Part shown: positions 11,022 to 12,180 of the stretch, piece after piece | Layout of the letters: every line of letters begins with the position of its first letter | Position numbering within the stretch: position 1 is the first letter of the stretch | From: a virus | DNA length: 24,220 nt | IMG/VR virus record: IMGVR_UViG_3300004012_000014 | Coordinates: 1 to 24,220 of that record | Direction: 5' to 3' (one strand) | The notes under the pieces: model-generated | What the model saw: the letters and a program-made list of their open reading frames with translations, nothing else | Databases searched by the model: none | What the model was told of the DNA's origin: nothing | Program-made: the position numbers and the translations under genes

Positions 11022-11438
11022 CTACATTTTACCTTTTACCTGTTTCAGCTTATCTACATTAAGAGAATATTTTTTATTATTATCAATTATATCATTGTTA
11101 ACAGCTTTTCTAAATTCTGTTTCTTTCATACTTAATTCATTTTTCTTATTAATAAGAAATCCATAAAATTTATTATAATCATCTTTACCTTTATTATATA
11201 TATTTTGATTTTCCGCAACAAGTTTTTTAGTATCTTTTTTTAATTTTTCGATATCTTCTATAGACATTTTATTTATAACAATTTTTTCTATCAATTCTAT
11301 TGCCCTTAAATCGATATTATTTAAAGTAATTTCATTTATAGCTTTTTGCCCCTTCTCATTAATAGAATTAAGCAAAGCCGCAATACTTTCAACTTCATTT
11401 TTTAATTTTTCAATCTCACTTTGTAATTTTTCTATCAT
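11022..11438 (-). CDS. Coiled-coil protein paired with a ribbon-helix-helix gene
   Basis: This 138-residue protein is almost entirely coiled coil (IEKLQSEIEKLKNEVESIAA through KKDTKKLVAENQNIY), ending in a basic tail (KYSLNVDKLKQVKGKM). There are no cysteines, membrane segments or catalytic motifs. Its ATG overlaps the stop of the ribbon-helix-helix gene by 4 bases (ATGA), typical of a co-regulated pair. Partition-like, toxin-antitoxin-like or RNA-associated roles are all conceivable; the sequence does not decide. Confidence 0.72.
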   Translation of the reverse strand: MIEKLQSEIEKLKNEVESIAALLNSINEKGQKAINEITLNNIDLRAIELIEKIVINKMSIEDIEKLKKDTKKLVAENQNIYNKGKDDYNKFYGFLINKKNELSMKETEFRKAVNNDIIDNNKKYSLNVDKLKQVKGKM

Positions 11439-11602
11439 AATAACTCCTTTTTGATATTTATTTTTTTTAATAATAATTTGATAATTAAATCTTTCATAGT
11501 CGTATTATTATCTATGCAAAATTTTTTGACCTCATTTTTAAGTTTTCTTGATATTTCTATTGTTATCCTATCATCAAATTTATTATTATTTTTATCATTC
11601 AT
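11435..11602 (-). CDS. Ribbon-helix-helix DNA-binding protein (55 aa)
   Basis: The ATG at 11602 follows GAGGCGGTAAT. The 55-residue product has the RHH layout: strand DRITIEISRKL (11-21), helix KNEVKKFCIDNN (22-33), turn TTMKDL, and helix IIKLLLKKI. This is an Arc/CopG-type dimeric repressor fold. It lies directly downstream of the long structured region (11640-12145), whose 3' arm falls in this gene's leader, so the RNA could control its translation. It overlaps the following coiled-coil gene by 4 bases. Confidence 0.8.
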   Translation of the reverse strand: MNDKNNNKFDDRITIEISRKLKNEVKKFCIDNNTTMKDLIIKLLLKKINIKKELL

Positions 11603-11639
11603 ATTACCGCCTCATTTAATATCTTATGAAATATTTATT

Positions 11640-11662
11640 ATCAGTATATACAAACAGTGTAA
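11640..11662. repeat. Left arm of a 23-bp inverted repeat
   Basis: This arm pairs with 11790-11812 at 21 of 23 positions (two central mismatches). It closes a domain of about 175 nt that forms the 3' part of the structured RNA region, and ends 38 bases before the start of the ribbon-helix-helix gene. Confidence 0.85.
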
Positions 11663-11789
11663 GCTGAGCGATGCAATAATTTTCAAACTTTTTCATTTAC
11701 TATGCATTCTTGAATTCGTCAATTCTATTTACGCTGTATTAACTAGTATCTAGCATGTAAGCTCTATCTTAACCAAATTGTTAAGACCT

Positions 11790-11812
11790 TTACACCATTT
11801 GTATATACTGAT
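11790..11812. repeat. Right arm of a 23-bp inverted repeat
   Basis: This arm pairs with 11640-11662. Its outer end touches the AAGACCTT helix (11783-11790), so the two helices compete or form a pseudoknot. Confidence 0.85.
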
Positions 11813-11899
11813 TAAAAGTTGAGGGGATGACTACCCCTCTATTTGTTAAGGTCTTATGTTAACAAGTTTTCGCAACTTGTACTAACTGCCTTGCAAGTA

Positions 11900-11979
11900 A
11901 AGGACCGCCGGGAATCGAACCCGGATATATAAATATATTGGATAGCTAATCCATGGATAATTCCAACATCCCAAATCCT
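11900..11979 (-). ncRNA. tRNA-like domain with perfect T-arm and odd anticodon arm
   Basis: Minus strand: AGGATT (11974-11979) can pair with GGTCCT (11901-11906, two G-T pairs). Then come T8-G9, D-arm GGAT-GTTGGAATT-ATCC, a short anticodon arm TGGA-TTAGCTA-TCCA, an A/T variable arm of about 14 nt that can fold on itself (class II-like), and an ideal T-arm CCGGG-TTCGATT-CCCGG (11908-11924). The 5' acceptor strand is one base short, the anticodon stem is only 4 bp, and position 37 is T rather than a purine. A normal decoding tRNA is therefore doubtful. No CCA is encoded. A nominal AGC anticodon should not be trusted. Confidence 0.6.
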
Positions 11980-12151
11980 AACACAACCAACTTTACCCTC
12001 CGCCAACCATAACATTTTATATTTACTTAGGGCGTTTTAAAACGTTATTAAAATCTTTGCCCTCGTGGAATAGTTTTCTTTAAAGTCTGTAACTATTCTA
12101 AAAAAGACTAAAAATCTAATTAATAAAATTACTAAGCATAATCATATTATA

Positions 12152-12180
12152 ATTTTAACATTTTAACATTCAATTGTCAA
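12152..12180 (-). promoter_or_regulatory. Promoter of the structured RNA region
   Basis: On the minus strand consensus TTGACA (12175-12180) is followed after 17 bases by TAAAAT (12152-12157). The -35 lies in the last codons of the preceding coiled-coil gene. Transcription would begin near 12145 and run into the structured region rather than into a gene. Confidence 0.75.

Follow-up and report, generated by a model that had tools for sequence, protein, structure and literature searches.

Among the closest described counterparts of the locus analysed here are ROOL and GOLLD, large structured phage RNAs of unknown function that are often found near tRNA genes (PMC12286853). A further point of comparison is the bacterial Y RNA YrlA, a non-coding RNA built of modules, one of them tRNA-like (PMC8394870). 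The kind of element is known, structured phage RNA with tRNA mimicry, and the modules that we describe are themselves undescribed in Rfam and unmatched in phage and plasmid collections. On comparison with related phages, the locus is a row of three separately inherited structured RNA modules, here named A, B and C, rather than one ROOL/GOLLD-like RNA.

The window, meaning the whole stretch of DNA that was analysed, is a 24,220-base IMG/VR virus record with a GC content of 26.6%, and it is identical, over the compared stretch, to part of the 38.9-kb record IMGVR_UViG_3300025563_000008. Its genes encode a Toprim/DnaB-type primase-helicase, a DnaD-like replisome organizer, an amidase, a holin, tail proteins and an LPXTG surface protein, and the host is thus probably Gram-positive. 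Five related phage records, G001-G005 (G001 is 3300036647_000025, G002 is 3300035128_000027 and G003 is 3300031371_000009), plus shorter pieces, were recovered with the tail protein and the amidase as queries; the primase and the DnaD-like protein as queries led to no records but the near-identical one and those of distant phages. The relatives are mosaic; G001 retains the full order of primase, 132-aa gene, RNA gap, ribbon-helix-helix gene and coiled-coil gene. In the window the gap spans 11603-12169, bounded by the 132-aa gene (end 12170) and the ribbon-helix-helix gene (start 11602), with the minus strand being the coding strand of the flanking genes on both sides. From right to left, the features are:

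12152-12180, minus strand: promoter TTGACA-17-TAAAAT, 11/12 matches, with TG before the -10; an equivalent TTGACA promoter lies in G001 at L011:19001
12144-12170, minus strand: operator-like AT repeat AATGTTAAAATGTTAAAATTATAATAT overlapping the promoter, differing at 4/27 positions from the G001 27-mer AATGTTAATATTATAATATTATAATAT
11980-12109, minus strand: 5' domain of module A, with a hairpin 12098-12091/12075-12068 and an AGGGC/GCCCT region at 12063-12029; compensatory changes in the consensus fold
11901-11979, minus strand: tRNA-like cloverleaf of module A, from the minimum-energy structure of the window sequence and a full-length RF00005 alignment at 11900-11979
11818-11899, minus strand: module B, GCAAGGCAGTTAGTAC to TAAGACCTTAACAAATAGAGGGGTAGTCATCCCCTC, with a 6-bp hairpin at its end; 94% identical in G003, core also in G002
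11638-11814, minus strand: module C, a multi-branched domain closed by a 23-bp helix 11812-11790/11662-11640, with inner hairpins at 11788-11766, 11762-11727 and 11725-11712
11435-11602, minus strand: ribbon-helix-helix (Arc-like) repressor gene (PHROG 582, E 6e-5), with a ribosome site GAGGCGG at 11613-11607
11022-11438, minus strand: coiled-coil-like gene after the repressor gene, in the same operon, with a 33% identical homologue in G001

The sequence-only reading had described a gene-free, structured gap behind a good promoter, and this description holds. No credible gene was found in the gap: the 53-aa open reading frame at 11854-12015, which runs across the tRNA-like domain, was rejected, as in the comparison with G001 12 of its codon changes are nonsynonymous, 3 are synonymous and the start codon is lost. 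The full stretch folds better than shuffled sequences (z -3.8), and the plus strand does so as well (z -4.0); since both strands fold about equally well, strand polarity must come from covariation and not from folding energy alone. Consensus folds are stronger on the RNA strand than on the other strand for modules A (-36.4 vs -23.5 kcal/mol) and C (-38.1 vs -25.7 kcal/mol). The promoter aimed at the gap was likewise recovered with 11 of 12 matches; promoter-like sites in general are not above chance (13 vs 9.1 +/- 2.7), and thus the support for this one rests on its conservation in G001. Conservation and compensatory changes together support the earlier proposal of a non-coding RNA that is structured, has a promoter of its own and includes a tRNA-like domain.

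No Rfam family matches the stretch at gathering cut-offs, and weaker matches (E<=10) to snoRNA, mascRNA and ST7 models were judged to be chance or confined to the T arm. ROOL and GOLLD had been named as families to check: neither model (RF03087, RF02032) gave a match at E<=10, including when the virus record itself was searched with each family, and for ROOL this negative result is to be read alongside control genomes that also lacked any match. BLASTN of the stretch and of the relatives' modules against phage and plasmid collections returned no real match. A gapped-pattern search in bacterial genomes gave two matches, both judged to be chance.

Along the RNA, bases 62-270 make up module A, 278-353 module B and 358-531 module C. 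G001 has only module A, and G003 has B and C, 2.8 kb apart; thus, as judged by this distribution, the A-B-C fusion is particular to the window phage within the set of records compared. The gap had been proposed to encode one RNA of about 500 nt, perhaps of a new class, and this RNA dissolves here into three modules that the relatives place independently. The comparison shows A, B and C to be conserved elements that exist apart, A and C with conserved secondary structure, on the strength of two sequences for A, two for C and three for B, numbers of rows with which shuffle controls are weak. The structures are well supported, and the functions are what we infer. A pairing of AAGACCTT with AAGGTCTT, put forward earlier as one half of a mutually exclusive switch, exists in the window, where it joins module B to module C. 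It is not conserved: in G003, with B and C far apart, the partner sequence is different, module C has another helix there and the pairing cannot form, so that a conserved switch was rejected.

Module B consists, across its three phages, of a long invariant run that closes with the 6-bp hairpin, the latter with one two-sided change, and its AAGG/CCUU pairing is internal and invariant. In G003 it occurs alone, directly behind a TTGACA-17-TATACT promoter and upstream of a gene for an Enc34-type ssDNA-binding protein. A 17-base core of B was also detected in two other phage contigs, inside a protein gene where it encodes LTLTNR, and these occurrences were discarded. In G002, a highly structured gap of ~570 nt (L044:6010-5441, minus strand; -132.9 kcal/mol) has module B inside as well as two GGTGCAAGTCC hairpins, and may be another composite RNA locus.

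Beyond module C lies the repressor gene, whose homologue occupies the same place in G001 with no match at the DNA level and whose product has no Pfam match at E<=0.01; for the coiled-coil-like gene no family match was found. In G001 the 27-nt AATGTTAATATTATAATATTATAATAT is present in two identical copies, one in the RNA A promoter region and one in that of the ribbon-helix-helix gene, and its nearest equivalents among the six phages are at the RNA promoter of the window, plus one weaker match in G003. With an identical repeat at both G001 promoters and an Arc-like repressor encoded alongside, it is a natural inference that the repressor would bind this shared operator repeat and control its own gene together with the RNA. 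Elsewhere in the window, at 6390-6362 and 8336-8308 (minus strand), two identical promoters TTGACTTTGGATTAATAATCCTATATAAT carry the palindrome GGATTAATAATCC, and other phages of the group have repeated operator-like promoters of their own, which suggests phage-specific repressors.

The reading that we tentatively favour, and hold at somewhat less than even confidence, is that of a phage non-coding RNA locus, expressed in infected cells, whose processed transcript would stand under the ribbon-helix-helix repressor, with RNA A serving as a trans-acting tRNA mimic. A possible but less probable explanation is a long structured 5' leader that acts in cis on the repressor operon, through translation, stability or antitermination, with the modules as interchangeable leader elements. 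Action in cis on the ribbon-helix-helix gene had also been suggested from the sequence, and in the window it may occur, since the RNA enters the repressor leader with no clear terminator between RNA and gene. Apart from the RNA promoter, none is evident there for the repressor gene. The case is weaker in G001, where a promoter of its own precedes module A and a terminator-like hairpin with UUUUAAUU behind it comes after (seen in the fold, although the terminator search filter did not list it) and the repressor gene downstream has a separate promoter. The arrangement in G003 is congruent with leader function, B being directly behind a promoter and ahead of a gene, and C preceding another gene within a leader in which a promoter, a tRNA-Met at the leader's start and further structured sequence all come before C; a promoter-proximal element repeated in different operons would moreover fit an antitermination signal. 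Against this, different genes lie downstream of the same module in different phages, and a full cloverleaf is unexpected as a leader element. The cis-leader explanation is weakened for A by the arrangement in G001, and it stays plausible for B and C, which both lie upstream of genes in G003.

Returning to RNA A as a tRNA mimic, the cloverleaf is predicted from the window sequence alone, as the last 79 nt of module A in the minimum-energy structure. It comprises an acceptor stem AGGATT/GGTCCT, a D arm with GG, an arm at the anticodon position with the loop UAGCU, a variable arm, and a T arm CCGGG-TTCGATT-CCCGG. At the corresponding position, G001 has a counterpart of module A (about 12109-11901) with 81% identity over 212 nt, and the similarity ends directly after the 3' end of the cloverleaf; the DNA of the primase gene is also 81% identical to G001, with its fourfold-degenerate sites only 50.5% identical (107 sites). 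All 21 cloverleaf pairs are kept in G001 despite 10 substitutions at paired sites, for which random placement of substitutions gives a chance of about 3e-5. Four pairs are changed on both sides, two in the anticodon-position stem and two in the T stem, where slid controls gave none. No substitution falls in the GG of the D loop, the T loop TTCGATT or the loop UAGCU. The tRNA-like domain anticipated by the sequence-only reading is therefore confirmed at 11979-11901, by the minimum-energy fold, the kept pairs and the alignment to the tRNA model. Module A by itself folds no better than shuffles (z 0.0), so that its support is evolutionary.

The Rfam tRNA model RF00005 aligns with the same end-to-end borders in both phages, at 13.4 bits in the window and 15.2 bits in G001. 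The cut-off is 29 bits and the true tRNAs of these phages reach 50-60 bits; ARAGORN called no tRNA or tmRNA in the stretch. Thus, the cloverleaf is tRNA-like, by descent or by mimicry, and on the tests run is not a working tRNA. It shares with tRNA the cloverleaf itself, the T loop TTCGATT, the D-loop GG, a 6-pair acceptor and a long class II-type variable arm, but departs from it in lacking a U at position 8 and a CCA, and in forming the 3' end of a longer conserved RNA. At the anticodon position the arm has five pairs and a five-base loop in both phages, which reaches seven bases only if one pair opens. A functionless degenerate tRNA gene amid AT-rich debris would fit the low score and the ARAGORN result, the unremarkable folding energy of module A alone and the true tRNA-Met still present nearby in G001. 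We nevertheless regard it as improbable, since the same degenerate form persists in two phages whose fourfold sites are about 50% identical, with pairs kept by double changes and both the D and T loops unchanged.

Other RNAs with tRNA-like parts resemble module A to differing degrees. Like YrlA, it belongs to a modular non-coding RNA carrying a tRNA-like domain; in the folds of A, no terminal stem was seen that would join its 5' and 3' ends as the long stem of YrlA does, the anticodon-position and variable arms are retained in the tRNA-like part, no rsr/Ro60 gene was recognised next to it, and there is no Rfam match at E<=10. The likeness to tmRNA lies in a T arm that matches at 14 bits and in an RNA exceeding tRNA size with a tRNA-like end, although here the cloverleaf is contiguous at the 3' side, with no tag reading frame (ARAGORN) and no further tmRNA domains. 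In RNA plant viruses, tRNA-like structures form the 3' terminus of a larger viral RNA and mimic tRNA there; module A is alike in this general respect and differs in belonging to a DNA phage. The loop UAGCU also holds the palindrome AGCU, and palindromic loops form homomeric kissing contacts in OLE (PMC12286853); dimerisation of RNA A via this loop would, by analogy, be a testable idea only.

In both phages that carry it, module C folds into the multi-branched domain with its 23-bp closing helix, at z -5.9 in the window and -7.7 in G003. The 23-bp inverted repeat reported earlier was recovered at 11640-11662/11790-11812; of its 23 pairs, two are G-U when read on the minus strand. In the comparison with G003 all 23 closing pairs are kept, and every departure from Watson-Crick pairing is a G-U on the minus strand in both phages. 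An inner hairpin of 8 pairs is found at the same place with wholly different sequence (GUCUUAAC/GUUAAGAU in the window, UGCCAGAG/CUCUGGUA in G003), and the GACG-capped hairpin has a two-sided change. For helices P1, P3 and P4 together, 36 of 38 testable pairs are kept (chance 0.001); hairpin P5 gained no support in the window/G003 comparison. A second domain adjoins C in G003, between the tRNA-Met and module C (L046:7332-7565), and is closed by a long helix AAGTTATTTAAAAT/ATTTTAAATAACTT.

The inverted repeat, the adjoining replication genes and the different positions of module C in two phages could also be explained by a DNA element, namely a replication origin beside the primase gene or, for module C, a mobile inverted-repeat element. 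This seems just as improbable as the degenerate tRNA gene: no iterons were found in the stretch, wherever the repeat pairs imperfectly both phages have G-U on the RNA strand, the interior of C is conserved with compensatory changes, and related sequence totalling about 287 kb contains just two copies of C, a search with a model of the module having found no further one. Weakest of all is a divergent ROOL or GOLLD, a large ornate phage RNA, which the phage origin, the size, the tRNA genes nearby in relatives and a palindromic AGCU loop comparable to the kissing loops of OLE and GOLLD (PMC12286853) might recall, but which is scarcely credible given that neither model matches at E 10 and that the stretch breaks into separately exchanged modules.

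Under the favoured reading of a processed, repressor-controlled transcript, leftward transcription from 12180-12152 would run through the three independently exchanged modules and then the repressor gene. By analogy with tRNA maturation, RNase P and 3' trimming may cut at the cloverleaf of module A, near 11979 and 11901, and by analogy with rRNA maturation, RNase III may cut the 23-bp stem of module C, such that host enzymes would release separate RNAs. RNA A, of about 210 nt with a tRNA-like 3' end, could then act in trans as a tRNA mimic, for instance by offering a tRNA-binding host protein a decoy or a scaffold, and the ribbon-helix-helix protein would act at the shared operator repeat to repress the RNA along with its own gene.

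Further tRNA-like and repeat elements occur in the phage group. A second tRNA-like element in the window, at 10937-10744 (minus strand), has a 6-bp acceptor GATTTA/TAAATC (10937-10932/10749-10744), a T-arm loop TTTGATT and, at the anticodon place, a 7-bp stem CTACCAG/CTGGTGG with a long insertion of ~130 nt that contains repeats like TTGGAATGTAAAT; its fold is no better than shuffles, and at its place G001 has a canonical tRNA-Met (L042:14655-14580). In G003, another tRNA-like element (L046:11095-11215), with an acceptor CCTCTAT/ATAGGGG and an insertion of about 50-60 nt in the anticodon loop, adjoins a true tRNA-Thr and is followed by a stretch with repeated TGGAAACA. Between tail-region genes of G004 (L049:8857-8895) and G005 (L052:2233-2271) lies a T-arm minihelix (GGGTA..GATAG TTCGATT CTATC A TACCC), resembling a tRNA without its other arms. 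Finally, a 609-nt gap in G003 (G003:C1:36906-37514, L048:6906-7514) is full of inverted repeats GTTGTAACCCT / AGGGTTACAAC and is possibly a replication origin or a repressor binding array.

A wider proposal, which we consider speculative and rather unlikely in its entirety, is that these phages share an exchangeable set of undescribed RNAs, comprising a tRNA-ended RNA, a multi-branched RNA closed by 23 bp, a short leader element and aberrant tRNA-like RNAs, and that these RNAs, cut out of shared transcripts by host enzymes of tRNA and rRNA processing and controlled by a ribbon-helix-helix repressor, would act as tRNA mimics against host tRNA-directed processes or defences. Large structured phage RNAs have so far been found mostly singly. 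Here, within a group of phages, structured RNA modules are exchanged between loci, and one of these modules ends in a degenerate but maintained tRNA cloverleaf; this modular exchange, together with the aberrant tRNA-like elements in the same phages, is the more surprising part. The RNA with the cloverleaf apparently shares its repressor with the gene that follows, and the locus offers a concrete system for asking what phage tRNA mimics do.
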